DNA from: a virus
Length of the DNA: 36,809 bases
Virus record (IMG/VR): IMGVR_UViG_3300025646_000148
Coordinates: 1-36,809 of that record
Direction: 5' to 3' (one strand)
Shown here: positions 6,388-36,809 of the stretch, in pieces
Position numbering within the stretch: the stretch's first letter is position 1
How the letters are laid out: every line of letters starts with the position of its first letter
Notes under the pieces: model-generated
What the model saw: the letters and a program-made list of their open reading frames with translations, nothing else
What the model was told of the DNA's origin: nothing
The model's database searches: none
Translations under genes and position numbers: made by a program

Positions 6388-8235
6388 TTAGCCGAGTGCA
6401 ACGGCCAAAGCGAGACTGACGCCTCCTGCAGTTGGTGCAGGCACGTTAATCACCACATCAATTTCTTCATTACCAGCATCATCTGCAGCACTAATTTCTG
6501 CAATGCCGCTGGGGATGAAATTGATTGTACGGCGAGTTCCGGCAGTCACGCCAGTGACGCTCACTCCCACTCGTGCGTTGCCATCCAGCGCACCAGTGAT
6601 GGTCACGCGAGATTGATCAATGGCAGTAGTACCACCACTGTTAACAATCTCAATAATTTGATCCGCCGTCAGATCTTGCGGCGTGCCGCTAACAACAGCG
6701 CCCTTAACGCGCAATGCTGGCATGTGTTCCAGCTTCGCATTAGAAATACTATCGTCTGGAATGGCTAGATCATTCAGCACTGTAAAGAGCAAGCCATCAG
6801 TGTCAAGCACTGGTGACTGAACAGTCTGTACATATTGCTTACCAGCGTTTGTGGCGCCACTCAGAACGAAAGCAAAACTGCCAGCTTCAATTTCAACGTT
6901 ATTGTTGTAATCAACAGCGCGAGTGAAGACAGCACTAATACCAGCATTGCCGGAAGTTGTCAGCTCGTAAATGCCGTTCTCGCTAGCAGTAGCCTGATCT
7001 TTAAACAACACCCGCGTACCAGTGGCGGTAACGCTCACGCCATCAATGGAGGGAGTGCCCGTAGCTGTATAGGTGAAGGTTTGACCACCACTTGCATACG
7101 TGCCAACTTGCCCGCTAACCGTAGCAAGCAGCACAGCCTCCTTAACAACTAGACCCTGCGCAACACTGTCCACATAGTCCTTGGTAACCGCGTCGGTAGA
7201 CGACACAGGCGTGCCAATATTGGTCAGTTTGTAACCATTGAGATTGACATCTTGCGTAGCACCAGCAAGAATCAAATCAGAATTGGCATTGATGCTAATG
7301 TCATTACTGACCACTCCAACGGTGATCTTGCTGCTACCAGCGCGAATGCCGCGTAGTTCAGCTCGATAGTTACCGGCAACAAGCGTAGAGGCATTGGCAA
7401 CAATGCTCTGTCCAGCAGTGGCAACGTTTGCCACGCTGTTCAGGCCCTGCAGGTTACGCAGTGCCACTTGGGCAGTGTTGCCGCCCGTGCCGCCTTGATT
7501 TACTGACAGAGCAGTAGTCAGGCCAGACAGGCTTGTAATGTCTGTATTGTCACCAGCCTTAGCCGCACCAAGATTACTCCGTGCATCCGAGGCAGTGGTG
7601 GCATTTGTGCCACCAATGCCAATAGCAAGAGGCGATGCGGTGTTCAGATCGTTAATGCTGATGCCACTGGAAACAATGTCAACCGTGACAGAATTGCCAC
7701 CATCGGCCAATCCAAGTAATACCTTCTCGCTGCCAGCCTTGAGAGTACGGAAGCGTAAATCTTGCGTGCCATCACCCAACGTTGAAATACTGGACAGTAC
7801 GTTATACGTGGTGCCAGAGCCCGCAAGATTACTGGCAGTCGAAACTGCATTCGTGCGAATAGCAAGGTCAACGCGATTGCTTCCAGGATTATCGGTGCCA
7901 GAAAGCAGGATTGACGCGCCAGGAATAAAATTGATTTCGCGCCGCGTACCAATAGTGGTACCGCCAGACGAAATAACACTTTGCTGAACAGTAGTGTCAG
8001 CAACAACCGACAATGTAAGAGTGTTACTGCCGTCGTTATATGATGCATCGATGCCCGTGCCGGCAGACACGAGCAAATCAATCATGTCCTGAAGGCCTTC
8101 CTTCAGATTGGCATAAGTGATGCGCTTTGTAACAGAAAGCGAGGGGTTGGTCGTATTATCTACAACGACAAACACATCGTCATTGTTGGGCGTTACAAGC
8201 TCAACAAGATCCGAAATCAATCGCGTTTGCGCCAT
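6388..8235 (-). CDS. Tail fibre protein with repeats
   Basis: This 615-residue fibre has an N-terminus (MAQTRLISDLVELVTPNNDD) different from the MANT fibres. The shaft holds the GIGGTNATTASDARSNLGA and VNQGGTGGNTAQVALRNLQG type repeats common in phage fibres (about residues 206-264). A TKDYVDSVAQGLVVKEAV domain (about 338-500) is a paralogue of the one in the 489-residue fibre. A segment with GTRREINFIP near residue 97 recurs as GTRRTINFIP near the C-terminus, so the ends appear to carry copies of one module. The expected role is receptor recognition. The start codon lies 3 nt from the upstream stop. Confidence 0.9.
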   Translation of the reverse strand: MAQTRLISDLVELVTPNNDDVFVVVDNTTNPSLSVTKRITYANLKEGLQDMIDLLVSAGTGIDASYNDGSNTLTLSVVADTTVQQSVISSGGTTIGTRREINFIPGASILLSGTDNPGSNRVDLAIRTNAVSTASNLAGSGTTYNVLSSISTLGDGTQDLRFRTLKAGSEKVLLGLADGGNSVTVDIVSSGISINDLNTASPLAIGIGGTNATTASDARSNLGAAKAGDNTDITSLSGLTTALSVNQGGTGGNTAQVALRNLQGLNSVANVATAGQSIVANASTLVAGNYRAELRGIRAGSSKITVGVVSNDISINANSDLILAGATQDVNLNGYKLTNIGTPVSSTDAVTKDYVDSVAQGLVVKEAVLLATVSGQVGTYASGGQTFTYTATGTPSIDGVSVTATGTRVLFKDQATASENGIYELTTSGNAGISAVFTRAVDYNNNVEIEAGSFAFVLSGATNAGKQYVQTVQSPVLDTDGLLFTVLNDLAIPDDSISNAKLEHMPALRVKGAVVSGTPQDLTADQIIEIVNSGGTTAIDQSRVTITGALDGNARVGVSVTGVTAGTRRTINFIPSGIAEISAADDAGNEEIDVVINVPAPTAGGVSLALAVALG

Positions 8236-8238
8236 GGA

Positions 8239-9048
8239 TTAGGAAGCCCCGCTAACTTTAATTTCCTTGAATACTGGTATCGTAGCACTATTGCTAGACT
8301 CTCTCGTCCAGAAAAACGGTCTCAGAGTTGCAGTGGTGCCACTAAATGCATAGATGGCAGCATTGTTCCTGTATAGATCAACAGCGCCGGTAATGCCATC
8401 GCGACGCAGCTCAAACACATCGTCACTCTTTAAATAGACAGGACCACCGCTCACTGTAATGTCAATGCCACTACCTGCCAAAGCATTGGCTCTTGTTGAT
8501 GCCAGTCGAATCTTGTTAGTGCCAGAAGGAATGGCGTAGTAAGTGACGCCACTCTGCAATGGAGTAGGAGTGGAACCGCTATAAATAATCACTGCATCGC
8601 CAGTGGCATAGCCATGCCCAGAAATGGTCAGTGTATCAAAAGCGATATCAGTGGAAGAGCTAACAGTGTTCTTCACTACTGATGCAATGGTACTGCCAGC
8701 GCAACACACGTTTACCTTTCTGTTGTTGCTGGTGCTTTCGGCAAAACTTACGGAATAGATGCCGTAGTTGGAACCATTGTCCCTAATCTCGTTAGCAGCA
8801 GCCCACGTAGACACCGCTGAAATGTTGGTCGAAGTGGCAATGCCAATGGCAGTGGTGCCTACGGCATTACCGCTGACTGCCACGTCAAATAATTCCGGCT
8901 CAATCTTGAAACTGAACCTGCCATTTCGCGGTTCTTGCGATGGGTTTTGAAAGATTTGCGTGCCAATGCAGAAGGCATAAGCACGATCTTCCAGCTCCAC
9001 GGGGAGACCGCTAGGAGACGTGTTGATAATGGAACTGCCGTTTGCCAT
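8239..9048 (-). CDS. Tail structural protein, beta-rich
   Basis: This 269-residue protein sits between a paralogous-pair member (694 aa) and the 615-residue fibre. The N-terminal half has strands such as GRFSFKIEPELFDVAVSG and YGIYSVSFAES, consistent with a jelly-roll. The middle contains LTISGHGYATGDAVIIYSG followed by GVTYYAIPSGTNKIRLAST, a short all-beta module I recognise in many fibre and tail proteins. The C-terminal region (FELRRDGITGAVDLYRNN) again looks lectin-like. A binding role at the tail tip is likely, but the family is not named with confidence. Confidence 0.8.
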   Translation of the reverse strand: MANGSSIINTSPSGLPVELEDRAYAFCIGTQIFQNPSQEPRNGRFSFKIEPELFDVAVSGNAVGTTAIGIATSTNISAVSTWAAANEIRDNGSNYGIYSVSFAESTSNNRKVNVCCAGSTIASVVKNTVSSSTDIAFDTLTISGHGYATGDAVIIYSGSTPTPLQSGVTYYAIPSGTNKIRLASTRANALAGSGIDITVSGGPVYLKSDDVFELRRDGITGAVDLYRNNAAIYAFSGTTATLRPFFWTRESSNSATIPVFKEIKVSGAS

Positions 9049-9057
9049 GCTTTTGCT

Positions 9058-11142
9058 CTATCGCAGCCCGTAATTCAAGAACACTCGCGTTTCGGGCGCT
9101 GGGCTAACCACATTATACGTGTTTGTGGTAGTGCAGTTATAGAGCTTCATCCATTGAGCATCCTTCTCGGCTAGCGATACTGTCAGCAATGCATCATCAA
9201 CGCGACGTGCGGCAAATACAACAGCACCTTGGTCAATGGGGCGAGCGCGAGAAGCAATGGCTTGATTAATTACGAGGTCGTAATAGGCAGTACCAAAGTC
9301 CCCTGTAGCGACGCCAGCGCCGGAGAAGCCAGTAAATACTGCCCCTCCACGAGATGTACTAATGCGAATGGTATTTACGCCTGGCGTTGCAACAATGTAA
9401 TAAGTGGTAAGTCCAATGACAAAGCGGAAGCCGATTTCAAGCGTGTGCTTACGGCCCAAAGTCAGCGTACCATCGCCACCAATGTTTGTAATTTGATATT
9501 TTTCATTGACAATGGGGAAGTCAAATTTACTGTCGTATTCAGTGGTAATAGCTTCGCGTACTAAGCTGTAGATTTTCGTCAGATCAACACGCTCTGGCTT
9601 GTTTGCTGCCACGAAGAACGTGCCAAGCTTCTTACCGTTGACCGTCTGCTTGAGAACAAAATTACCCTCAAGGGTGCCCATGTCAGTGGCGATATAAGCA
9701 TCCTCCACTGATACGGGAAGCTCCTCTGGCGCTTCTGTAACCAAATCAATCACATCGCCAAATTCATCCAGACCCTGCAGGATGGATTCGGCCAACCCAT
9801 AACCGCCCTCGCTGCCAGTGGGGAGTGTGCCATTGATATGACCCACTTCCTCATCCATCGAGCCAAACTGAGGATCACGAATGACGGCTAGTTCGGTGCG
9901 GCAATTGCTCATTACATCCATGGACTTAGGTAATCCCTGGAGTGTGTTGAGAATGCGTCCTGGGGCAAAGTCTTTTGCTCTCAGTGCAAACAATGGAAAA
10001 TAGTGGGCGGCTTCAGAGCCGCCCAATACAGGGCCAATATCGCGACCTTCTGAAAGGTCAAGACCATGCATATCAGCCTTTTCACTTTCTCCGCCATCAA
10101 TTTGCAGGCTCAGTCCATATTTGATGATGTACTGAGGCTCAACGAGGTAGCCACTATTGCTGATTTCAATAGTAAAAGGCAGGGCGGGAGTGCCAAGGCT
10201 GGGGGCATCCAGGCTGTCGGAGATCAGCAGCTCGTGCATCAGCACCCAGCGCCCGCGAGGGATGCCTGAGATGGTCGAGGGGAGGTCTGTGGCTTCGTCT
10301 ACGACAAAGGCATAGAACCGAGCAGAACTGGCGCCATACCAGCCCCACTCCACCAGATACATACAGTTCTTAGTGAAGTCAATAGCGGCATTGCTACTGC
10401 CAGTACCATCAAGCTTGTCACCATTGAACAGGCTGCGAGGAACGATGGTTTCCTTGGGAAGACCATCGCCGGAAGAGCGTCGATGGACAATGCGGAAATT
10501 ATCTCCACTACCATCAGAAATAATCTGGAAGAAGAAGCCGTCCAGAGTGTCGCCAATTCCCCATAGCTTCTCACAAGCCGGCAGATCTGCCAGGCTCATC
10601 TGCAAACACACAGAAGAGCGAATAACGCGACCAGTTTGATAGCGGAAGCGTTTCTTCGTGCTAATCCTTACACGCTGGAAGCCACCGCCTGCTTTTGCCA
10701 GCTCAATGCGAACGGCGCGACGGTCAGGATCATGCTGAATATAGCCCGTTGGTAGCGGGCTATATTCCACCAGTACATCTTGAAGCTGGCTCCACTTAGC
10801 GCTTTCTAAATCGTCTTCGCCAGTTTCATTCAGACCTTGAATTTCGCTGACATAAATGTCTTCACGGAGATCGTAGTCGTCCGTGTAGTTGAACAGGCTA
10901 AGCGTTTGCTCAACTCTTTGATTGCCAAAAATATCGCTCCTGGTTTCAGTGGGCTTCTCTTTATAAAAGCTCACTGCCATGTCGCCACCAAGTCGTGGCA
11001 GAACAATTGGAATGCCTGATGCCTTTACGTCCTGACCGAAAGGAAAATCACCAGCCTCCTGAAGGACTGTACCTGCATTAGAGCCACTGGCAACGACAAC
11101 TCGTCGTTGCCCCACCTCATGGGGAAGCTGGTAATAAGCCAT
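9058..11142 (-). CDS. Tail protein, paralogue A of a lectin-like pair
   Basis: This 694-residue protein shares a long core with the preceding 516-residue protein. The shared landmarks, in order, are a YQTGRVIRSS-type segment, ETIVPRSLFNGDKLDGT, WGWYGASSARFYAF, RGRWVLMHELLISD, PSLGTPALPFTIEIS and a final IDGGE. The core (about residues 165-370) looks like a beta-sandwich glycan-binding domain. The C-terminal extension (about 430-694) is absent from the paralogue. It may be a tail-tip side fibre or plate protein. A 12-bp perfect hairpin (10737-10767) lies inside the coding sequence. The start is the ATG at 11142. Confidence 0.85.
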   Translation of the reverse strand: MAYYQLPHEVGQRRVVVASGSNAGTVLQEAGDFPFGQDVKASGIPIVLPRLGGDMAVSFYKEKPTETRSDIFGNQRVEQTLSLFNYTDDYDLREDIYVSEIQGLNETGEDDLESAKWSQLQDVLVEYSPLPTGYIQHDPDRRAVRIELAKAGGGFQRVRISTKKRFRYQTGRVIRSSVCLQMSLADLPACEKLWGIGDTLDGFFFQIISDGSGDNFRIVHRRSSGDGLPKETIVPRSLFNGDKLDGTGSSNAAIDFTKNCMYLVEWGWYGASSARFYAFVVDEATDLPSTISGIPRGRWVLMHELLISDSLDAPSLGTPALPFTIEISNSGYLVEPQYIIKYGLSLQIDGGESEKADMHGLDLSEGRDIGPVLGGSEAAHYFPLFALRAKDFAPGRILNTLQGLPKSMDVMSNCRTELAVIRDPQFGSMDEEVGHINGTLPTGSEGGYGLAESILQGLDEFGDVIDLVTEAPEELPVSVEDAYIATDMGTLEGNFVLKQTVNGKKLGTFFVAANKPERVDLTKIYSLVREAITTEYDSKFDFPIVNEKYQITNIGGDGTLTLGRKHTLEIGFRFVIGLTTYYIVATPGVNTIRISTSRGGAVFTGFSGAGVATGDFGTAYYDLVINQAIASRARPIDQGAVVFAARRVDDALLTVSLAEKDAQWMKLYNCTTTNTYNVVSPAPETRVFLNYGLR
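10737..10767. repeat. Perfect 12-bp inverted repeat inside a coding region
   Basis: The arms GAATATAGCCCG and CGGGCTATATTC are exact reverse complements separated by 7 nt. No T-tract follows on either strand, so this is not a standard terminator. It lies in codons for YSPLPTGYI in the 694-residue tail protein. It could form an mRNA hairpin or a cruciform. The function is unknown. Confidence 0.8.
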
Positions 11143-11151
11143 GTCTTTTAA

Positions 11152-12702
11152 TTAGCGTTCGCCCCAGGTGATGGAGCCGGCGACAGTGTTGCCACTATCG
11201 GCAACAGATTGAGCAGTCAGGACGAGAATGTCTCCACTCTCGCCGGTATCGTTGGAGATGGGGCGAGTAAGGAATTCACGGTTGTAACGGAAGATTTCTT
11301 CAAGGATAATATTTTGACCATCATCATCACCAGTGAAGAACGTAGCAACAGGCTCACCACCAGTTAAACCAGTGGCAGTGGTGTTGTATTCAATGGCAGA
11401 TAGCGATGCCGTTGATGTAAACACACCAGATGCAGTGGCCGGATTAACAGAGCTTCCGCCAATCAAAAGCGATGTGGGATTTTTGACAAGGGCAAACTTG
11501 GCGCGATATTGCGAGGAAAGGTTGGCCATAAGCGGCACCACTCGCATGATGTTTTGCTTGCTATTGCCGTCATCGTTGGTAATATTTTCCTTACAACGAA
11601 TGGTCAGTAGCGGACGTGTTGTTCCAGGATTAATACTGGCAGCAGCGCCTTCCTGAGAAAAGATGTCGTACTTACTGGCATCACCACCATCGATTTCAGC
11701 CTTGGTGCCATACACCTTGAGATAGACGGCTTGCGAAATGCTGCCAGTCTTTGTGACTTCAAAAGTCATGGGCAAATTAGGATTGCCCAGGCTGGGGAAC
11801 GGAATGCGGTCGCAAGTGTTGAGCTGGTGAACGGTCACCCACCGTGCATTCTTGGCAGTAGCGCCAGCAGGTAGATTTTCATCCACTGGCACATAGGCCA
11901 TTAGACGCGCCGCAGAACCGCCATACCAGCCCATCATGATGCGGAACATCGTCACGTTAGACAGACTCAGCGTATGAACGCTGGGGGCTGTGCCATCGAG
12001 CTTGTCACCATTGAAAGCACTACGCGGAACAATCTCTTCCATTACGGAAGGATCGGAAGGCAGCACACGATAACGATGGTTGTTATACAAGCTGCTGGGG
12101 TCGCTAACAGTGAAATCAGTGCTACCTACTGGAGCACCATGATTCTGAGGGCTTTCACCGGAATTAGTGCGACGAACAAAATACAAATCATCGCCAATAA
12201 TGCGAATGATATAACCATTGCTGCCATCAAAAATGCCAAACTCAATAGTGGCATTAGTGTTCTTCAGCATGCTTACGCCAAAGCTGGCGTCAGTAATGCG
12301 TCCAGTCTGATACGGAAACACCAAACGGCTCTGCATCCGAGCAATGGTGCTGTTCGGCGCGTTCGTATTAATCAGCAACTGCGCACCGCTTTCCTGTGGC
12401 AGGTGCGTCACGCTGGAATAATCAGGCGTGCCTGTGTCGTCAGCAGTGATTTTCCACGCTTTTGGATCGATGGCAAGAATGTTGGTGCTGTCCCACAGTT
12501 GCAGACTGCTCTGCACACGAGGGTTGCCCAGCAAGTCATCATGCACCTCTGAAGGTGCGCTGAGGTTGTCCAGGATGGGTACTGGACTTTGATCGCTCGC
12601 AATTACAACCGGCAGCGAGTTGGCCATCGTGGCCTGACCGGCAGCAATCGGCTCACTGCGGCCAACTGTTACTACCTGTTTACCTTCTTCAATGTCAGGC
12701 AT
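11152..12702 (-). CDS. Tail protein, paralogue B of a lectin-like pair
   Basis: This 516-residue protein is the shorter member of the pair with the 694-residue protein. Shared landmarks are YQTGRITDASFGVSM, EEIVPRSAFNGDKLDGT, MGWYGGSAARLMAY, NARWVTVHQLNTCD, PSLGNPNLPMTFEVT and AEIDGGD. After the shared core comes a unique C-terminus with LLTIRCKENITND. It is probably a beta-sandwich tail-tip component that binds host glycans. The function is inferred from the fold impression and gene position. The start at 12702 has a usable AAGGAA just upstream. A gap of about 28 nt separates it from the preceding gene. Confidence 0.85.
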   Translation of the reverse strand: MPDIEEGKQVVTVGRSEPIAAGQATMANSLPVVIASDQSPVPILDNLSAPSEVHDDLLGNPRVQSSLQLWDSTNILAIDPKAWKITADDTGTPDYSSVTHLPQESGAQLLINTNAPNSTIARMQSRLVFPYQTGRITDASFGVSMLKNTNATIEFGIFDGSNGYIIRIIGDDLYFVRRTNSGESPQNHGAPVGSTDFTVSDPSSLYNNHRYRVLPSDPSVMEEIVPRSAFNGDKLDGTAPSVHTLSLSNVTMFRIMMGWYGGSAARLMAYVPVDENLPAGATAKNARWVTVHQLNTCDRIPFPSLGNPNLPMTFEVTKTGSISQAVYLKVYGTKAEIDGGDASKYDIFSQEGAAASINPGTTRPLLTIRCKENITNDDGNSKQNIMRVVPLMANLSSQYRAKFALVKNPTSLLIGGSSVNPATASGVFTSTASLSAIEYNTTATGLTGGEPVATFFTGDDDGQNIILEEIFRYNREFLTRPISNDTGESGDILVLTAQSVADSGNTVAGSITWGER

Positions 12703-28850: not shown

Positions 28851-29765
28851 TCAGGGAGCCTGAACGTAGATGACGCTCTTGGGATAGTACAGAGCGACAC
28901 CACCCACGCGAGCATGGGCGGGAACGATGAACTCAAGGCCACGCTGTTGGGGCGGGAAGAGTTCTAGGGGCTGAGGAATGTGCAGTTGCACTTTGCCGGG
29001 ATCACGCTTGTAGATGACCATCCGGTTTTTGGTCAGGCTGCTCTTGTCAGCATCGAGCTGGTTAATAGGCTCAACGTTACGGATGAAGGGGTTGGTGCGC
29101 AGGAAGTACTCCAGCACAGTCACATCCGAAGAGTCAGAATTACGGGTGGTAGAAACCACGTTGTAATCTTCCCAAGCCATCAGGATGGTGTCGGGCTGCT
29201 CCTTCATGTTGGAGCCATTGATAATGGCAGTAACACCCTGGTTCAGCAGCTCCAGCATGTCTTGAGCAGTGGTGCCAGTGGCGGTAGCGCCAGTGAACCA
29301 CTTGTCAGCAGCCAGCACGTCAACAGTCGAGTTGTTGAAGAAACCAGCCAGGCCCACCGAAGCCTCACCGAACAGGGCAACGCTCTCCACTTTCTCTTCG
29401 TAAGCGCGACGCACGGCGGCGGCACGACGCTGCTCAAGAGCCACGTTGGCCATTTGAGCGGCACGCAGTTCCTGCACGGTATAACCGAAGGAACCACCGA
29501 AGGAGCGGATGTTGAGGCTCTTCTCGATTTGGCTCACATCAGCACGCGGCAGATCATCTGCAGCGTCAGAGATGAGCTTAAAGTCACCGGTCGCATCCAT
29601 GATGCGATAGGTGAAGGTTTGTGCGCCAGGGCCAGCTTCGCTGGTTACGGGCAGGATTGTGGGGTATTTGATGTCGGCATATTCGACTTCAAACACTTGA
29701 GGGCGGATGTACTCAAGCTGGCGCTCAAGAAACAGACCCGCTTCATCCATACGAAATTCGCTCAT
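28851..29765 (-). CDS. Major capsid protein, DUF2184 family
   Basis: This 304-residue protein forms the icosahedral shell (HK97 fold). DUF2184 landmarks are RPQVFEVEYADIKYPTILPV at about residues 21-40, YRIMDATGDFKLISDAADD, then SFGGSFGYTVQELRAAQM and VALFGEASVGLAGFFNNS. The C-terminal part has FIVPAHARVGGVALYYPKS. The start at 29765 has a perfect AGGAGG Shine-Dalgarno 6 nt upstream, the strongest ribosome site noted here, as expected for the most abundant virion protein. There is no long N-terminal delta domain, in line with the separate protease/scaffold gene. Confidence 0.95.
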   Translation of the reverse strand: MSEFRMDEAGLFLERQLEYIRPQVFEVEYADIKYPTILPVTSEAGPGAQTFTYRIMDATGDFKLISDAADDLPRADVSQIEKSLNIRSFGGSFGYTVQELRAAQMANVALEQRRAAAVRRAYEEKVESVALFGEASVGLAGFFNNSTVDVLAADKWFTGATATGTTAQDMLELLNQGVTAIINGSNMKEQPDTILMAWEDYNVVSTTRNSDSSDVTVLEYFLRTNPFIRNVEPINQLDADKSSLTKNRMVIYKRDPGKVQLHIPQPLELFPPQQRGLEFIVPAHARVGGVALYYPKSVIYVQAP

Positions 29766-30350: not shown

Positions 30351-30971
30351 TTACTTAGCCTCCTTAGAAATGGAGAGAGGGGACTTCCAGGCATTCTGCA
30401 GCTTCTCCATATAGGAAGAAGGAGCAGAAGCAGGGGTGGCAATCGAAGCCACTGCCTTACGCAGATCCTCAGTGGAATCGGCGCGGTTGGCAGCGTCTTC
30501 AGAGATGGTGTCAAACATTGCCAGAACGTAGTCGTCGGAACGCTCGTCCAGGGCAACAGAATCGCCGCGAACTGCCTTGATGGAATCAACCATCACTTCG
30601 CGGTCGCTCTTGCCGCTGAATTCATAAGCGGCATCTAGTACGGGCTTAGCCTTGGAGATGAGGGCCAGGCGCTCTTCAACGATGGAATCAACGTTGATTT
30701 GTTTGGCCTCTTCCAGTTCAGCCTTCAGGGAGTCAACTTGCTCGGCCAGAGCATCGGCCCGCCCTTCAGCGGAATCCATTTTGCCCTTCATTTCCTCAGC
30801 CATGGCGTCCATTTCGGACTTCATGGAATCAGCAGCGGCCTGCAGCTCGTCGTACTTCTTCTTCATGTCCTCATAGGACATCTTGGCGTCTTCTCGTTCT
30901 TTGGTGATCGCCAGAGCAACGCTCTCGCTCACCTCAAACTCAGCGCCGTCAAAATTGACTTTTGCGCTCAT
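30351..30971 (-). CDS. Nested in-frame scaffold protein (predicted)
   Basis: A second start (ATG at 30971, beginning MSAKVNFDGAEFEVSESVAL) in the protease/scaffold gene is preceded by a Shine-Dalgarno-like GAGGA. It would yield the scaffold domain alone (206 residues, mostly coiled coil). Lambda Nu3 and similar phage scaffolds are made in the same way. The existence of the separate product is inferred from the ribosome site and the domain boundary. Confidence 0.55.
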   Translation of the reverse strand: MSAKVNFDGAEFEVSESVALAITKEREDAKMSYEDMKKKYDELQAAADSMKSEMDAMAEEMKGKMDSAEGRADALAEQVDSLKAELEEAKQINVDSIVEERLALISKAKPVLDAAYEFSGKSDREVMVDSIKAVRGDSVALDERSDDYVLAMFDTISEDAANRADSTEDLRKAVASIATPASAPSSYMEKLQNAWKSPLSISKEAK

Positions 30972-31547
30972 GGTTTGGTTTTCCTCAGTGGAAATTAGAG
31001 ATGGATCAGCGGCATCTAGACGATCCAAATGCAGCCTCACCTGCGGGCCAGCTCGGCCTCGGCGAACGATAGCAACGTGATTACCACTGATCTCCTTTTG
31101 GATACCGTCGTAATGCTCACCGTTATCGGTAACGCCAGGCGTCGGATCATAATTGACCCTATAGCCAGCGCTCACTTCACGAACATCGCCGCGCATCACC
31201 CTATCAATAGTTTCGCGGTCAGTCACGGTCATGACGGCTTTAACAAAGCCATTGTCATAAACGATTTCCGAACCAGTAAAACCGATTTGGTAATCCTTGG
31301 TGTTTTCGCTGTCCAAAAGAACAGGAGGATGTTCCATCGTGATTGCCTTCCCCGCAAATGAGGCAAGGCTTTCTGGAGACGCCACTTCAGTCTCAGGACG
31401 GAATTCCTTCCTGATAGAACCGTCAGCATCGGTGTAATGCTGAATGCCAGTACGAGCAATTGAAGCCCACACCCGAAGATAACCTTCAGGTGTCATTTCA
31501 TATTTCTCGATAGGAGAAACGTCGTACCGACAAGATGTGGTGCTCAT
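30351..31547 (-). CDS. Prohead protease fused to scaffold (DUF2213)
   Basis: This 398-residue protein combines an N-terminal protease (about residues 1-180) with a C-terminal scaffold (193-398). Likely catalytic residues are His73 (MEHPP), Ser126 (EVSAGYRVN) and His157 (GNHVAIVRRG); which of them act is inference. The scaffold part is a long charged coiled coil (MKKKYDELQAAADSMKSEMD and following heptads). Met193 (ATG at 30971) is preceded by GAGGA, about 10 nt upstream, so a separate scaffold of 206 residues can be made, as in lambda C/Nu3. It is the first minus-strand gene after the divergent regulator. Confidence 0.9.
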   Translation of the reverse strand: MSTTSCRYDVSPIEKYEMTPEGYLRVWASIARTGIQHYTDADGSIRKEFRPETEVASPESLASFAGKAITMEHPPVLLDSENTKDYQIGFTGSEIVYDNGFVKAVMTVTDRETIDRVMRGDVREVSAGYRVNYDPTPGVTDNGEHYDGIQKEISGNHVAIVRRGRAGPQVRLHLDRLDAADPSLISTEENQTMSAKVNFDGAEFEVSESVALAITKEREDAKMSYEDMKKKYDELQAAADSMKSEMDAMAEEMKGKMDSAEGRADALAEQVDSLKAELEEAKQINVDSIVEERLALISKAKPVLDAAYEFSGKSDREVMVDSIKAVRGDSVALDERSDDYVLAMFDTISEDAANRADSTEDLRKAVASIATPASAPSSYMEKLQNAWKSPLSISKEAK

Positions 31548-31607: not shown

Positions 31608-31898
31608 ATGACGCAAAAAAGGCTAACGGCCCGTAAAGTAAAAAGCCCGCAAAGTTCCCTCTCGGAAGCCAAGATTCTCATTGGTTCCCGAGTGCGGGAA
31701 GCTCGCCTTGGCTGCGGACTTTCGCAGCGAGCCCTAGCAGAAATTCTTTACTGCGATCAAGCAACAGTGTCCCGTATTGAAAACGGCATCCTCGCGCCAG
31801 ACATCGCTCAAATCAAAGTAATGAGTGGCGTGTTTCAACTCAGCGTGCTGTGGTTAATGGGCTACCCATCATTCGTAGTCCACGCCACACAAGATTAA
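31608..31898 (+). CDS. XRE-family transcriptional regulator
   Basis: This 96-residue protein is the only plus-strand gene in the window. Residues about 26-80 form an XRE / HTH_3 domain: IGSRVREARLGCGLSQRALA, then a CDQATVSRIENG recognition segment, and LQFSV-like residues (FQLSVLWLMGY) at the end. The first 20 residues are basic and probably disordered. An inverted repeat lies 10 bp upstream. The gene converges on the small acidic protein gene and overlaps its stop by 4 nt. It probably regulates itself and possibly the divergent head genes. No Shine-Dalgarno is visible. Confidence 0.85.
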   Translation: MTQKRLTARKVKSPQSSLSEAKILIGSRVREARLGCGLSQRALAEILYCDQATVSRIENGILAPDIAQIKVMSGVFQLSVLWLMGYPSFVVHATQD

Positions 31899-32206
31899 TC
31901 TTCGTCGTCCTCGTCTTCGTCATCACGAATCGAAGCAAGCTGTTCCTCAATGCCTTCCATGATGTAGGCCTTAGCCATAGCAACTGCCTCAAAAATCAAA
32001 AACTTGGCAGGTTCAAATTGCGAGTCGGGCATTTCATACACGCTTTGTATGTATTCATGCGTCTCCTCCAGGCGCCCATTCTTAAACACCTGCTTCTCAA
32101 CAAGCTCCCACCGAGAAGTATTTCGATGGGCGTTGCGCGACAGAATCTGCAGCGCTTGCATCACACTGATGCCATCCTCTTCGCGCACAGTCCTAGTCTC
32201 TTCCAT
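31895..32206 (-). CDS. Small acidic protein of unknown function
   Basis: This 103-residue protein has a mixed helical body (SVMQALQILSRNAHRNTSRW, AKFLIFEAVAMAKAYIMEG) and a C-terminal run of acidic residues (DDEDEDDED). The family is not recognised. It is the last gene before the divergent regulator, and the gene ends tail to tail with a 4-nt overlap. The start is 2 nt after the preceding stop. The acidic tail could bind a basic partner or mimic nucleic acid, but this is speculation. Confidence 0.72.
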   Translation of the reverse strand: MEETRTVREEDGISVMQALQILSRNAHRNTSRWELVEKQVFKNGRLEETHEYIQSVYEMPDSQFEPAKFLIFEAVAMAKAYIMEGIEEQLASIRDDEDEDDED

Positions 32207-32208
32207 CG

Positions 32209-32562
32209 CTATTTTGAGCGCTTTTCCAACATCTTAAGCATGCGTTTTGCCCAGGCTCTCCCGGCATCGCCTCCCCATAGTTGCCAAGCGATGTAACCGG
32301 CATCATTTTCACCGCCACTCTTGTTCTTTTCGTGGCGCGAAAAGAACGCAACCATGCGACGAAGAGTGGCCTCGCTCACTTTCATGCCATTGGCCAGGCT
32401 CGTAGCCCTAGCCACGCCACTGCCAATCCCTTGTTTCCCGGCCTCTCCAGTGGTGAGACCTCCCTTTCCGTGCTTTCGACGCAGCTCAAGGCCGCGCCGT
32501 GCAGCATTTCTTACTACCTGGGGAGGGGCGAAGCCTTCAGCGTCGCCCCTTAGCGCTTTTTT
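32209..32562 (-). CDS. LWGGDAG-motif domain, likely made by -1 frameshift fusion
   Basis: This frame has no ATG. The only in-frame near-starts are a CTG at 32484 and a GTG at 32415, both inside the conserved domain. The open frame encodes ALRGDAEGFAPPQVVRNAAR, then RGLELRRKHGKGG, SEATLRRMVAFFSRHEKNK, and AGYIAWQLWGGDAGRAWAKR. That set (PP-x-V, GLELR, RRM-x-FF-x-RHE, IAW-x-LWGGDAG) is a module I know from phage head-region proteins. It follows directly from the DUF6496-like gene by a -1 shift at A AAA AAG. The fusion would be 201 residues (86 + 115). The function is unknown, but position favours a head-maturation or packaging factor. Confidence 0.78.
   Translation of the reverse strand, partial: KKALRGDAEGFAPPQVVRNAARRGLELRRKHGKGGLTTGEAGKQGIGSGVARATSLANGMKVSEATLRRMVAFFSRHEKNKSGGENDAGYIAWQLWGGDAGRAWAKRMLKMLEKRSK
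32524..32562 (-). promoter_or_regulatory. Programmed -1 frameshift site (A AAA AAG plus hairpin)
   Basis: The in-frame heptamer A AAA AAG (32556-32562, as GAA AAA AAG) is followed by a 5-nt spacer and a perfect 8-bp hairpin (AGGGGCGA, 11-nt loop, TCGCCCCT; 32524-32550). The zero-frame stop TAA overlaps the start of the stem. The layout is that of E. coli dnaX. A -1 shift enters the LWGGDAG frame with no stop. Confidence 0.8.
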
Positions 32563-32813
32563 TCACAAGAACCATCTTCCATCTCTTCCTCTTCTTCCAT
32601 TCCTTCCTTGCTCATCGAACCACACATGGTGTCGATGTAGGCATCCCAATAAGCATCGCTCTTGCCCTTCTTTTCCATGCCAGCTTCGCTCATCGCAATG
32701 GCGATGGCTTGCTGGCGGCTCTGCACCGGCTTTCCGTCGCTGCCCTTCAGGGTTCCAGCCTTGAACTCGCGCATCACCTTGCGAACCTTCGCTTGCTTTT
32801 GCTTAGCGGTCAT
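32550..32813 (-). CDS. DUF6496-like small protein, zero frame
   Basis: This 87-residue protein begins MTAKQKQAKVRKVMREFKAG and has the SRQQAIAIAMSEAG motif of a family that I recognise as DUF6496-like. The end is acidic (MEEEEEMEDG) and reads EKKR before the stop. The ATG at 32813 overlaps the methyltransferase stop (ATGA); six further codons upstream would overlap more and are not used. The main product may be this short protein, with a minority fusion via the frameshift. The family function is not known to me, though it is frequent in phage head regions. Confidence 0.8.
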   Translation of the reverse strand: MTAKQKQAKVRKVMREFKAGTLKGSDGKPVQSRQQAIAIAMSEAGMEKKGKSDAYWDAYIDTMCGSMSKEGMEEEEEMEDGSCEKKR

Positions 32814-33352
32814 TTCTTCACAAGCCCCCAAAAATACAAATCGTGACTACTTGCATTCACACTAAAACAATAGTCAGAAAACATGCTGTTCAACTCAAAT
32901 TCTTCGTGAAAATCATCCTCCGTCAAGTTGCAGTAGTAGTCCCACCCTTTACCAACGGTCAAGGGACTACTGCCAGCATCTGTCCGTGAAGTGCCATGCT
33001 CTGGGCGCCCGGTAGTGGCGCAGGTCATCACCACCAGTCCGTCATCACGAACCATTCGCGTCATGTTGACAAAAGTCTCCTTCCAGTAGGGATTGTGCTC
33101 AAAGCATTCAGCGGAAATAGCCACGTCAAAACTGCCAGTAGCCCCGTCGTAATCCTGACCCTCGCACACCACGTCAACACCACGACCAGGACCAACGTCT
33201 ACTCCCACGTATTTTCGTGGGGCCTCAAAAAAGCGTCGCACGCTGCCATTAATGTCAAGGCTGCCAATTTCGACAATTCGACCACCATTGAAAAACGATG
33301 GGAAGGAATTTTTGACGCTCTCAACAAATTGCTGCTGCTCAAAATGCGCCAT
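32810..33352 (-). CDS. SAM-dependent class I methyltransferase
   Basis: This 180-residue protein has a complete Rossmann-type methyltransferase signature: motif I at about residues 27-37 (VEIGSLDINGS), the acidic loop at 49-62 (VGVDVGPGRGVDVV), motif IV at 75-86 (FDVAISAECFEH) and VRDDGLVVMTCATTG. It resembles methyltransferases that modify sugars or small molecules (Methyltransf_11) and not DNA methylases, since no DPPY or target-recognition part is present. It lies directly after two glycosyltransferases, so methylation of a virion glycan is the simplest inference. Confidence 0.87.
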   Translation of the reverse strand: MAHFEQQQFVESVKNSFPSFFNGGRIVEIGSLDINGSVRRFFEAPRKYVGVDVGPGRGVDVVCEGQDYDGATGSFDVAISAECFEHNPYWKETFVNMTRMVRDDGLVVMTCATTGRPEHGTSRTDAGSSPLTVGKGWDYYCNLTEDDFHEEFELNSMFSDYCFSVNASSHDLYFWGLVKK

Positions 33353-33354
33353 GA

Positions 33355-34041
33355 TTATTTCCCAAATGGTTTCGTGAACTGCTCATGACCAGGCAAGCCT
33401 CCCCACTTGGTTTGATAGTAGGCCTTGTTTCGCTCAAAGCAACACCAATGCATGCGCTTGTAGCGATCATCTCCACCGTGCAGAGTGCTACTGTTGTCAT
33501 GCGACCATGATGGTAAATTCACTTTTACCACAGGATTTTCCGCCACAAGCAGTCTCCACCTGCAATCATTGTCTTCAAAATAAGCGGGCGCAAATAATTC
33601 ATCGAATCCCCCCATTCCCAGCCATCGTTCGGGGCGATTCACATAGAACGTAGAAAAACCACCCACTGGATGATTGGTTTCCAGCAAGATGCTGTCAGGG
33701 TTTTCATCAGCGGCGTCTAAAAACGCCGCTATGTCATTAAGCCCAAACACCACATCATCATTGGCAATAATACATTGACCAAGCTGATTGATTAAATAAT
33801 TCCAGGATTTAGACACGCCAAGATTGTACGGCGGCACTGCTACTTTCCATTTTGACAAGTCGCAACATTCAGCAAGTGCATCCACTGCTGAACTGTCTTT
33901 CATCCGCCCACCATTGTCAAGAATGAGCACTTCTGCCTCAATGCAGGGGTGCTCATCATTCAACAAATGATTACACAAACGAATGAGCTTGTCGTAACAA
34001 GAAAGCGTGGGAATTCCCACGCTGATGCGACGCTTAGTCAT
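33355..34041 (-). CDS. GT2-like glycosyltransferase
   Basis: This 228-residue protein has a GT-A fold signature: SVGIPTLSCYDKLIRLCNHL at the start, AEVLILDNGG, PPYNLGVSKSWNYLI, and the acidic motif IANDDVVFG (Asp95-Asp96, DXD-like) that would bind the metal and nucleotide sugar. GFSTFYVNRPERW and GFDELFAPAYFEDNDCRWR follow, the acceptor-site pattern of this family. It likely transfers a sugar from a nucleotide donor to a virion protein or a glycan on it. The ATG at 34041 is preferred to a TTG six bases upstream. The start overlaps the preceding stop by 8 nt. Confidence 0.87.
   Translation of the reverse strand: MTKRRISVGIPTLSCYDKLIRLCNHLLNDEHPCIEAEVLILDNGGRMKDSSAVDALAECCDLSKWKVAVPPYNLGVSKSWNYLINQLGQCIIANDDVVFGLNDIAAFLDAADENPDSILLETNHPVGGFSTFYVNRPERWLGMGGFDELFAPAYFEDNDCRWRLLVAENPVVKVNLPSWSHDNSSTLHGGDDRYKRMHWCCFERNKAYYQTKWGGLPGHEQFTKPFGK
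33709..33730. repeat. 8-bp hairpin in the GT2-like gene
   Basis: The arms AGCGGCGT and ACGCCGCT with a 6-nt loop lie in codons for FLDAADEN. There is no T-tract. Confidence 0.65.
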
Positions 34042-35230
34042 CACCAAAACCCTTGCCAGCAGTGGATTCCTCTAGTGTGCGCTTAATGATTCCATTCACC
34101 AACGCGCCGATATTTTCCCACTTATATTCGTCCGCCTGCAGGCGCTCATAGCACCATCCAGCTACTTTGTCTAAATCTTCACGATTGTTGTAATAGTGAT
34201 TCAAAATTGTCACCAATCCTTCAACGGAAGGCACTCCGCGATCAAGACCGTAATTGCAATCAACCTCCCAGCCTTCAATAGGAATGCGCGGGATTTCATT
34301 GAAGATTTCCTTGAGCGATGTATGGTCAGGTACAATCTGCGCAGTAGCAGTGGCGGCGTGCTCAAAATTAACCAACCCCCAACCCTCGCCAATACAAGTA
34401 TTGATACCTACATCGACTGAGTTGTAAACAAGATTAAGCCGATCAACTGGAAGGCAATTGGTCACGTCAAAATCTTTACTTGTTAGTACCAATTTGCCAG
34501 TGGCGTCATATCCCATGTCACGCGCAATTCGCTTGAACAATGGAATCAAATCCCACCCTTGATCCTTCTTTCCCATGTTCAACCATAGGCGAGCATCGGG
34601 CTTATCAAGCGCAAATTCAATGAATGCCTTGATCGTCAAGTCAATCCGCTTACGCGGCTGATTGCGATTGCCATTAAACACAAAGAACACATCCTGTGGG
34701 AGGCCCATAGCCTCCCGCGCCTCTTCCTTCTTCACTGGAAAAAAGATGTCTGCATCAATACCATGCGGAATTACATCACACGGCATCTCACAGCCAGCCT
34801 TTCTCACTTCTTCAAGGCCAAATTGCGTGTAGGTGGCCATACCATCCCACTCTTTGCAATCTTCAAACACCTCAGGGAAGAAGCCATAGCTGTCCACCGG
34901 GAAATAACCATACCACTTAAAGCCAATCTGCTCCTTCAACGGCTTAGCCACCTGCCAGAGCTTATTCAAAATCCAAATATCATTCACCGCAAACACAAGG
35001 TCAGGGCGCTCCTTGACCAGTAACTCCTGAATACGATGAGAGCCAAACGGATCGTGGCCGCCCGCGTGTGCAGGATACATTTTGTACGGCAGCTCATGGG
35101 GATCACCCCACCAGTTGACGGCAAGAACAATCACTTCATGTTCTTTTGCCAACTCCGGCAACAGGTTTTCGGCCACACGTCCGAAACCTGTTTGTACTGC
35201 TGCGTCCCCGCAGTAAAGAATCTTGGCCAT
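34034..35230 (-). CDS. GT4-family glycosyltransferase
   Basis: This 398-residue GT-B fold enzyme has ILYCGDAAVQTGFGRVAENL at the start, the N-terminal Rossmann half to about residue 170, and a C-terminal GT4 half opening with FFVFNGNRNQPRKRIDLTIK. It contains the E-x7-E donor-binding motif in GEGWGLVNFEHAAT. It would use a nucleotide sugar to modify a virion component. The ATG at 35230 is chosen because family members begin at the first beta strand (KILYCGD). A GTG at 35272 would overlap the preceding stop as GTGA and is the alternative. Neither has a Shine-Dalgarno. Confidence 0.88.
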   Translation of the reverse strand: MAKILYCGDAAVQTGFGRVAENLLPELAKEHEVIVLAVNWWGDPHELPYKMYPAHAGGHDPFGSHRIQELLVKERPDLVFAVNDIWILNKLWQVAKPLKEQIGFKWYGYFPVDSYGFFPEVFEDCKEWDGMATYTQFGLEEVRKAGCEMPCDVIPHGIDADIFFPVKKEEAREAMGLPQDVFFVFNGNRNQPRKRIDLTIKAFIEFALDKPDARLWLNMGKKDQGWDLIPLFKRIARDMGYDATGKLVLTSKDFDVTNCLPVDRLNLVYNSVDVGINTCIGEGWGLVNFEHAATATAQIVPDHTSLKEIFNEIPRIPIEGWEVDCNYGLDRGVPSVEGLVTILNHYYNNREDLDKVAGWCYERLQADEYKWENIGALVNGIIKRTLEESTAGKGFGDD

Positions 35231-35268
35231 ACAAAGCGCAATGTCTTGCGCAATGTTAGGCCCAGTTT

Positions 35269-35931
35269 TCACACAGGACTTGTCGGTACAGCGCCGCGTT
35301 TGTATTCAACGGAACAACGACACCTTGCGCGACACTCACAGCGCTGCCCCGGCATCGGCAGGCTCCCCATCGCCACCAGACCAGCCCTCGCATAACGAAT
35401 GCAGTCGTCGCAATGCTGCGCTTGTGGATCAAGGATGCGGCGCATCAAGGAATATCCTTGTTTTCCTTGACGAAGACTGGCACCTTCCCAGTAAGAGCTT
35501 CGCACGCTTTCAGCATATAGGCGAACGCGAGCAAGAGCCATGGCAGTAGAAACGCGCCCAGAAAGAATATCCCTAGCAAAATTCTGAAGATAAGAATATT
35601 CCGCACGAAGCTTCTGACCGATGCGGCCGTATTCTGCGCTGCCCATGCCGTCCTTACCACCATGCCCAAGCACTGTTGCTTGAATATGAGCAGCCTTAAT
35701 TGCCTCGCGGACACTCCCTTGCCACTGATCAATCGTGATGTTTCCATCGGCCAGCATCTGCGTGAATCGCCTCAGATTCTGACCGAGCTTGTCGATGCGA
35801 CCATCCACTAGCGCCATCACGGCTTTCTGGCTCATGAATTGCCCCGAGGGGCGCCTGTAGCGCCCCAGATTGGCGTCATAAGCCCACTCAGCATCAAAGC
35901 GGGGCCACGGATCACTCAGTAGGCTCAACAT
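35269..35931 (-). CDS. Head morphogenesis / minor head protein (SPP1 gp7-like)
   Basis: This 220-residue protein belongs to the phage Mu F / SPP1 gp7 class. The C-terminal signature is a cysteine-rich knot: Cys174, Cys177, Cys198, Cys200, Cys204 and Cys206 in HCDDCIRYARAG and LPMPGQRCECRARCRCSVEY. A few copies sit inside the head near the portal. The gene overlaps the portal stop by 20 nt, which is usual for this pair. A GC hairpin (35848-35866) lies near the 5' end. The length is shorter than in gp7 proteins (about 300 aa), so part of the N-terminal region is reduced. Confidence 0.88.
   Translation of the reverse strand: MLSLLSDPWPRFDAEWAYDANLGRYRRPSGQFMSQKAVMALVDGRIDKLGQNLRRFTQMLADGNITIDQWQGSVREAIKAAHIQATVLGHGGKDGMGSAEYGRIGQKLRAEYSYLQNFARDILSGRVSTAMALARVRLYAESVRSSYWEGASLRQGKQGYSLMRRILDPQAQHCDDCIRYARAGLVAMGSLPMPGQRCECRARCRCSVEYKRGAVPTSPV
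35848..35866. repeat. 7-bp GC hairpin in the head morphogenesis gene
   Basis: The arms GGGGCGC and GCGCCCC with a 5-nt loop lie near the 5' end of the gene. The arms share their core with the hairpins at 14141-14162 and 18061-18082. Confidence 0.65.
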
Positions 35932-36809
35932 TGCCGGCCTCCAGAATGTCCTTGAAGCGCTCAGGAGCCTCTTCCTTCCACTGGTTCAGCGCTGCATCAA
36001 TATCAGCCTGCGTCACCAGTGAAGCTTCGTCAATATCGCCAAGAATGAGCCCTTCAGTCTTGAGCGGCTCGATGGCATCCTTCTTGAAATACTCGGCAGT
36101 CTGCTTCTTGCCCTTAAAAGCGCCGGCCATTCCGCCGTGCTTCTGCTTATAAAGCTCCTTGTACTTCCGCGTCACGTAAGCACCGGCCACAGCGCTCGGC
36201 CAAGTTTTGAACTTGGCCTTCGCTGCCGCAATTGCTTTTTTGTGTAGCTCCTTGTCTTTGAATTCCACGTCGTCGCGCTCATGCTCAAGGTCGCGAGACA
36301 TATAGAGCCCTGCTTCGTCCATCTTTTCGGCCTCAGCCCCTTCAGATGCTTCACGAGTGCCGTCCATGGGCAATGTGCCATTCTGTTGATCCATTGGATC
36401 GCGACCACCTGCCGGCACTTTTCCTGCTGCTGCTTTCTCAGGCAGCTCTCGCTTAATCGATGGATCAATGGTGGTCTCAATGCTGTATTCACTCTTTCCG
36501 AATCGCGAATCAGCCACCTCCTGTGGCGTCAGCACACCCACCTGGATGTAACGAGCATCCACCGCAGCCACACGCGCACGCACATCAGCCAGCTCACGCT
36601 CGTTCATTTCAAACAAGGGCTTGAAGCTCACGCGCCAGTTGTCAGGAACTTTTCCGTTAGTAGGACCACTCTTGCTCAACATGATGTATTCCATCAGCTT
36701 CGTCAAAGGCTTACGGAAATTAGTTTCTTGATAGTGATGGCAAGTCTTTGCAAAGTCACGCTCTTCACTACGGCCCGTAGCGCCTAAGCCAGACGGCGAC
36801 TGACCAAAG
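35912..36809 (-). CDS. Portal protein, DUF1073 type (C-terminal part, 5' end off window)
   Basis: The frame is open from the window edge to 35912. The first residues seen are GQSPSGLGATGRSEERDF, the SP-x-G-x-x-ATG portal signature, then LTKLMEYIMLSKSG and NERELADVRARVAAVDARYI. An ATG-based reading would start too late; the protein continues beyond the window. After the portal core, a C-terminal extension carries AAAKAKFKTWPSAVAGAYVT, a WPSA-type motif found in other phage proteins. It forms the vertex channel for DNA. The overlap of 20 nt with the head morphogenesis gene is typical. Confidence 0.9.
   Translation of the reverse strand, partial: FGQSPSGLGATGRSEERDFAKTCHHYQETNFRKPLTKLMEYIMLSKSGPTNGKVPDNWRVSFKPLFEMNERELADVRARVAAVDARYIQVGVLTPQEVADSRFGKSEYSIETTIDPSIKRELPEKAAAGKVPAGGRDPMDQQNGTLPMDGTREASEGAEAEKMDEAGLYMSRDLEHERDDVEFKDKELHKKAIAAAKAKFKTWPSAVAGAYVTRKYKELYKQKHGGMAGAFKGKKQTAEYFKKDAIEPLKTEGLILGDIDEASLVTQADIDAALNQWKEEAPERFKDILEAGNVEPTE

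Follow-up and report, generated by a model that had tools for sequence, protein, structure and literature searches.

The window analysed here spans 36,809 bases, has no end repeats and comes from a virus of cyanobacteria (IMG/VR record IMGVR_UViG_3300025646_000148); all of the virion genes discussed below are on its minus strand. Three successive genes among them encode a GT4 glycosyltransferase (34034-35230), a GT2 glycosyltransferase (33355-34041) and a class I S-adenosylmethionine (SAM)-dependent methyltransferase (MT; 32810-33352). Read 5' to 3', the gene order is the C-terminus of the portal protein, a 220-aa portal-adjacent protein, GT4, GT2, MT and a small DUF6496 protein (32550-32813; PF20106, E 1.9e-9), followed by two small genes, a DUF2213 protease, a 189-aa virion structural protein and the capsid protein. 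The GT4 and GT2 frames share 8 bases, MT starts 2 bases after the GT2 stop, and the MT stop shares an ATGA overlap with the ATG of the DUF6496 gene (all read from the sequence). The stop/start overlaps that join these four genes fit their expression together with the head. The numbers of promoters and terminators show no excess in the region (6 versus 6.7 and 9 versus 7.7 in shuffles, respectively), so no internal transcription start or stop can be claimed. The initial annotation had described the three enzyme genes as overlapping or abutting each other at this place, which the coordinates, the overlaps and the Pfam and PHROG families bear out; the arrangement is also conserved to a degree far above chance, in the gene order of Synechococcus phage S-CBS4 and in many IMG/VR loci. 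The gene on the upstream side does lie beside the portal, but its label in the initial annotation, 'head morphogenesis gene', is not confirmed: the protein encoded at 35269-35931 has no Pfam match and belongs to a PHROG of unknown function (PHROG 24776, 4e-99). We refer to it as gp13-like, after S-CBS4 gp013, and use it as the upstream anchor of the locus, with the DUF6496 gene as the downstream anchor.

What goes beyond the initial annotation is that the block between these anchors is polymorphic between relatives, with the GT4 as its constant member. We searched IMG/VR with the portal-adjacent protein, a scan that is independent of the glycosyltransferases and reaches only relatives whose version of it is about 55% identical or more. 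Loci (given L numbers) with 1 kb or more in common at 98.5% identity were merged into one unit, and 1.3 kb or more of downstream sequence was available for 48 units; L242 and L243, with matches of 46 residues, were dropped. A GT4 gene is present in all 48 non-redundant units, and its distance from the portal-adjacent gene is 0-59 bases in 44 of them, 563-588 bases in three and 3,175 bases in one. An extra frame is seen between the two genes in L189 and L199. The interval from GT4 to the DUF6496 gene, by comparison, was complete in 51 blocks, which represent 24 raw gene strings; the strings would be fewer if HNH genes and minus-strand frames were ignored, and they are approximate because the GT2 of L208 (49%) is missing from its own string. 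Across the lineage, the GT4 is kept and the rest of the block is exchanged.

The exchanged genes encode sugar-tailoring enzymes for the most part (Pfam assignments were made on tested members). The glycosyltransferases include GT32-like (PF04488), GT25 (PF01755), CAP59-like (PF11735) and GT2 (PF00535) families; the CAP59-like member also has a weak match to the GtrB-like PHROG 841. The methyltransferases are FkbM (PF05050), rhamnosyl O-methyltransferase/CmcI-like (PF04989) and C-methyltransferase (PF08484) proteins. Other members are a DegT aminotransferase (PF01041), an epimerase (PF01370; within the block in L034/L036-type phages), a 2OG-Fe(II) oxygenase (PF13640) and an HNH nuclease (PF13392), and four further families received no name from PHROGs. 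In L237 the GT4 and the next enzyme are fused in one frame of 629 aa, and the GT4 frames of L013 and L022 read on similarly. A block protein of about 400-435 aa starting with MTTSWDCFDTLV recurs in L013, L200, L207, L228, L236, L240 and L241; neither Pfam nor PHROGs give it a name (the member tested is that of L229), and it looks HAD-like by eye. HNH nuclease genes are found at the block edge in six units (L181, L182, L183, L188, L228 and L240) and fall into two families, of which one member each was checked by Pfam. These HNH genes and the extra frame of L189 and L199 could drive the exchange.

Near relatives differ wholly in the interval from GT4 to the next head gene, while their flanking DNA can be aligned at 72-98%. 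For example, L007 and L013 align at 7665-9202 (85%) and 10493-10937 (85%) of L007, with unrelated DNA between. The likeness of L034 to L039 is 87-98% in the upstream flank, 84% across GT4 and 93% in the downstream flank, and nothing matches in the middle; collinear flanks at 72-86% around unrelated middles are likewise seen for L208/L237 and L024/L099. The block of L024 is of the window type (GT2 and MT at 92% and 83% to the window), and its downstream head genes are nearest those of L099 (96% for DUF2213), although the L099 block differs. We also mapped the blocks on a tree of the portal-adjacent protein with 46 rows, using 16 block types obtained after hand merging (HNH genes and minus-strand frames ignored, L025 merged with L237); six of the 51 blocks were left off the tree, five without the upstream protein (L085, L097, L028, L099 and L100) and one with a short one (L037). 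The block types require 19 changes on this tree, where the minimum is 15 and the shuffled mean is 31.2. Block types run in clades, yet they have switched, including within the window's own clade (L013, L182). The GT4 is less than 70% alike in seven of the 133 pairs whose upstream protein is at least 90% alike, versus 0 out of 93 and 0 out of 67 pairs for downstream control genes, and these seven pairs trace to about three events. The block differences reflect exchange rather than slow drift, and the GT4 itself has been replaced sometimes.

The GT4 gene was called mechanically from a GTG (34034-35272), from which its residue numbers are counted here; its start is likely the ATG at 35230 (MAKILYCGD...). 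The assignment draws on Pfam, PHROGs, an alignment and a structural model. The protein matches Glyco_transf_4 (PF13439) with E 4e-6 and 27.4 bits, against a curated cut-off of 28.5, and PF00534 below the cut-off; it also matches PHROG 2170, 'glycosyltransferase', at 5e-68. EX7E is the catalytic motif of the GT4 family, and the protein carries the pair as E296/E304; both residues, as well as H170, R203 and K208, are invariant in 95 out of 95 rows of the GT4 alignment (the row of L219, which contains a stop, was omitted from a later alignment). The AlphaFold model (pLDDT 86.6) has the GT-B double Rossmann fold. Compared with PDB sequences, the GT4 profile gave as its top match B736L of chlorovirus NY-2A (E 4e-32) and then the GDP-mannose enzyme PimB' (2e-6). 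B736L (3oy2) is also the nearest solved structure to the model, both by Foldseek (TM 0.79/0.83) and by VIA (Z 40.4, 369 residues, 2.6 A; the runner-up has Z 34.0). The T4 alpha-glucosyltransferase is absent from the five PDB sequences matched by the profile and from the best 50 rows of the Foldseek and VIA structure matches, absences that exclude nothing. Sequence and model together point to a retaining GT-B enzyme with a nucleotide sugar as its putative donor. This donor is probably GDP-mannose or one like it supplied by the host, a reasonable guess because of the likeness to B736L and PimB' and of a mannose-6-phosphate isomerase neighbour in the S-EIV1-like group described below; for B736L itself, GDP-mannose is the best-bound donor (PMC9614988).

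The GT2 frame (33355-34041) begins at its own ATG; its residue numbers are counted from a TTG at 34047. The protein matches PF00535 (4.7e-5; 23.8 bits versus a cut-off of 23.3) and PHROG 29879 (1e-127), and its motifs are NDD at 96-98 and EDND at 158-161. DXD-like and ED motifs are hallmarks of GT2 and of the GT-A fold, and D98, E158, D159, N160 and D161 are invariant in the 28 rows of the alignment. The model is a GT-A fold (pLDDT 93.3), for which Foldseek lists a Leptospira glycosyltransferase, WrtF and AvpGT among the top matches; their scores are modest, so the sugar cannot be told. The MT matches Methyltransf_11 (PF08241; 24.1 bits versus a cut-off of 21.2) and PHROG 32762 (2.5e-100). Relatives of the MT are common in other phages, with a GT2-like match within 6 kb in 16 out of 73 cases and a CmcI-like match in 13 out of 73. 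No membrane helix was found in GT4, GT2 or MT (the top 19-residue Kyte-Doolittle mean is 1.32). Judged by their sequences, the window enzymes appear to be active glycosyltransferases together with a methyltransferase of the kind found beside them elsewhere.

More distant GT4 relatives are found in other contexts. In an S-EIV1-like group (L043-L081) the relatives are 45-49% identical and are located after a large primase-like gene, outside the head operon; a cluster of mannose-6-phosphate isomerase type adjoins them in 30 out of 37 loci (tested member PF01050, 5e-22), and HNH-like and unnamed genes were also seen downstream. A genome scan for a host origin of the GT4 gave six loci: three at 46-48% identity are short contigs of metagenome-assembled genomes (MAGs), at least two of which show S-EIV1-type neighbours by eye, and the remaining three are distant (31-37%). 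One of the latter, in an Arenicellales MAG (L359, 6850-12869), has a 37% GT4 relative beside a frame that by eye resembles an FkbM methyltransferase and near large, possibly surface proteins; this locus is a possible cellular counterpart of the block.

The C-terminal part of the portal protein is encoded at 35912-36706 (PHROG 146, E 6e-18; S-CBS4 gp012 is the portal protein in the equivalent place), in a gene that is truncated by the window end and has a 5'-open frame up to 36808. Kept downstream of the block are two small conserved head-region genes, of 68 aa (32209-32415; PHROG 2859) and 103 aa (31895-32206). They are followed by the DUF2213 head maturation protease (30351-31547; PF09979, 6.8e-44; PHROG 530, 1.8e-105) and the major capsid protein (28851-29765; PF09950, 1.3e-56; PHROG 264), which is 97% identical to that of S-CBS4. 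A repressor-like helix-turn-helix frame (by eye) is located at 31608-31898 on the plus strand, opposite to the head operon that contains it; the annotated transcriptional repressor gp021 of S-CBS4 matches it in place and in its opposite strand. Elsewhere in the window, two adjoining minus-strand genes (9058-11142 and 11152-12702) both match the virion structural PHROG 1645 and are likely a tandem duplication; S-CBS4 likewise has two adjoining virion structural genes there.

A swapped sugar block amid constant shell genes suggests changeable sugar coats, and we consider it probable (roughly 0.6) that the locus is serotype-like and equips a virion protein with a variable glycan, its enzymes being made together with the late head proteins. 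What is observed is the gene order, the overlaps, the conserved catalytic residues, a constant GT4 and the exchange of the rest; from these we infer late expression, a donor sugar, an acceptor protein, an order of steps and a benefit. The GT4 would add the first or core sugar to a virion protein in the cytoplasm, the GT2 would extend the sugar laid by the GT4, and the methyltransferase would cap a sugar hydroxyl. The extending and capping enzymes would be swapped among relatives by recombination at fixed borders, with the GT4 constant, so that nearly the same heads would carry different coat glycans, like serotypes. The benefit might be hiding from, or attaching to, the surface binders of hosts or grazers, or avoiding clumping. 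Genes for virion glycosylation in phages usually, though not obligatorily, lie within or beside the structural operon; here such head-operon placement is found in 48 out of 48 units, along with the overlaps. The constant place in the head operon, the translational coupling to a head gene, the solubility of the enzymes and the capsid-adjacent genes of two other phages argue, at the sequence level, for a virion target. These two phages have unrelated heads: Pontimonas phage phiPsal1 has GT4, MT and GT2 genes between its capsid and neck genes, and Microcystis phage Mae-JY09 has a glycosyltransferase gene one gene past its capsid gene.

Several points weigh against glycosylation of the virion. A place in the head operon is not by itself proof of a virion target, and the S-EIV1-like relatives of the GT4 (45-49%) adjoin a primase-like gene, not head genes. 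Serine/threonine content gave no clear acceptor among 23 virion or head-region proteins of the window, and the end of the capsid protein is not enriched in these two residues (0.03 over its C-terminal 60 residues). Enzymes of the GT4 fold match DNA glucosyltransferases by remote homology (PMC6024577, Table 3), and NY-2A capsid glycans are free of mannose (PMC9614988), so that even for B736L action on its capsid is unproven. The initial annotation had proposed virion proteins (capsid, cement or fibre) as the target, which agrees with the active-looking enzymes, the coupling to a head gene and the GT4 in 48 out of 48 units; the acceptor, however, could not be singled out. A 615-aa protein encoded at 6388-8235 (minus strand), among tail-side genes, has a partial match to the head decoration PHROG 2647 (E 4e-20) and is a candidate glycan acceptor.

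Could the enzymes instead act on the host, changing its surface polysaccharide in late infection so that progeny do not stick to debris or other phages are kept out? In composition the block is similar to gene sets for O-antigen and capsule (GT25, GT32, DegT aminotransferase, epimerase and C-methyltransferase), and glycosyltransferases of marine pelagimyophages are so read by their authors (PMC7029224). We regard this as unlikely, as a fixed place in the head operon (48 out of 48) is not needed for it and no membrane-bound GtrA, GtrB or flippase partner is named among the annotated block families. Lysogenic conversion in particular is unlikely because S-CBS4 has no annotated integrase. Gtr-type O-antigen conversion uses a membrane-bound transferase with GtrA/GtrB partners, O-antigen converters being membrane proteins; the three window enzymes are free of hydrophobic helices, and no Gtr partner is found beside them, in the window or in S-CBS4. 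Less likely still is that the region is a hotspot for unrelated accessory genes, driven by HNH nucleases and serving no single pathway. HNH genes at the block edge in several relatives and the widely differing cargo would agree with a hotspot, but the family-matched members, HNH aside, are glycosyltransferases, methyltransferases, enzymes of sugar-nucleotide type or an oxygenase, the GT4 is never missing, and in L237 the GT4 is in one 629-aa frame with the next enzyme.

It is about as improbable as a hotspot that the targets are modified bases in the phage DNA, glycosylated and methylated as a protection from restriction and CRISPR. Diverse DNA glycans made by viral glycosyltransferases are reportedly the subject of a 2024 Cell Reports paper, by its title, and the GT4 relative near a primase-like gene in S-EIV1-like phages would also fit such a role. 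Phage glycosyltransferases of the GT-B fold do act in this way in T4, and a like role is proposed for one of RB69 (PMC6024577). On the other side, exchangeable sugar-tailoring enzymes and placement in the head operon are unusual for DNA modification. The initial annotation saw no base-modification partner genes in the window, and this extends beyond it: PF00303 (thymidylate synthase/dCMP hydroxymethylase; control positive in 9 out of 14 genomes) and PF00145 (C5-methylase; control working) were found in none of 11 long relatives, some of whose records may be fragments. These zeros are weaker than they look, because PF00535 was also found in 0 out of 11 despite the GT2 present in S-CBS4, that is, the whole-record search misses divergent members. 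Tet_JBP, too, was found in none of the 11, an uninformative result as its control was silent, and ThyX, found in eight of them, is ordinary. None of the 105 annotated features of S-CBS4 names a base-modification gene; they include ribonucleotide reductase, ThyX and dCTP deaminase, and no gene for base hydroxymethylation or base glycosylation. For nucleotide-sugar synthesis, which the initial annotation had also thought worth searching for, the epimerase family PF01370 was found in 0 of the 11 long relatives, none of which is of L034/L036 type, and an epimerase is present in the blocks of L034/L036-type phages.

Returning to a variable glycan on the virion, we tentatively extend it to the lineage as a whole, in which S-CBS4-like siphoviruses may have true coat serotypes: a constant priming mannosyltransferase and an exchangeable cassette for outer sugars at one locus of the head operon, moved by recombination that is perhaps aided by HNH homing nucleases. 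A few mycobacteriophages are known to glycosylate their virions with enzymes of their own; the advantage of this in nature is unclear because antibodies are not the normal enemy of phages. A lineage with one constant glycosyltransferase and exchanged outer-sugar enzymes would suggest selection for coat variety in open water. It would also provide a naming rule for many marine contigs whose enzymes of this type are currently classed as auxiliary metabolic or host-surface genes. S-CBS4, growing on Synechococcus CB0101, is a cultured member, in which a mass-spectrometry test is directly possible.

Among known systems, the nearest is S-CBS4 itself (69,420 bases), which shares the gene order from portal to capsid (gp012-gp024), with identities to the window of 83.5% for GT4, 90.9% for GT2, 79.4% for MT and 97% for the capsid protein; it differs in an HNH gene between its MT and the next head gene and in a GT4 annotated from an internal start. 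In the mycobacteriophages Che8, Corndog and Myrna, phage-coded glycosyltransferases modify the capsid and tail tube (PMC12363180 and PMC12619734). The likeness lies in the phage-coded glycosyltransferases; here, in contrast, one fixed place in the head operon holds an entire interchangeable set of tailoring genes, which includes methyltransferases, an aminotransferase, an epimerase and an oxygenase, and the set is known from genes only. In the chloroviruses PBCV-1 and NY-2A, the capsid glycans have a constant core and virus-specific outer sugars, with O-methyl caps added by viral methyltransferases (PMC9614988). The likeness to the window and its relatives is one of gene content only, namely a constant core enzyme, virus-specific outer enzymes and O-methyl caps, and B736L is a homologue of the GT4; chloroviruses, however, infect eukaryotic algae and have other capsids, and PMC9614988 leaves the acceptor of B736L unresolved. 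Phage phiPsal1 has an MT 53% and a GT2 31% identical to those of the window, set between capsid and neck genes; it differs in its head module, in its MT being on the opposite strand and in its GT4 not being among the matches of the window GT4 at E 1e-5. Polymorphic O-antigen and capsule loci of bacteria likewise have constant flanks around an exchanged block of sugar genes; here, by contrast, the block is on a phage and no export or polymerase genes are seen. We found no report of a glycan locus that is polymorphic and lies among phage head genes in the open literature, which omits most subscription papers; what looks new is that a whole lineage has one exchangeable block of glycan genes, always at the same position of the head operon.

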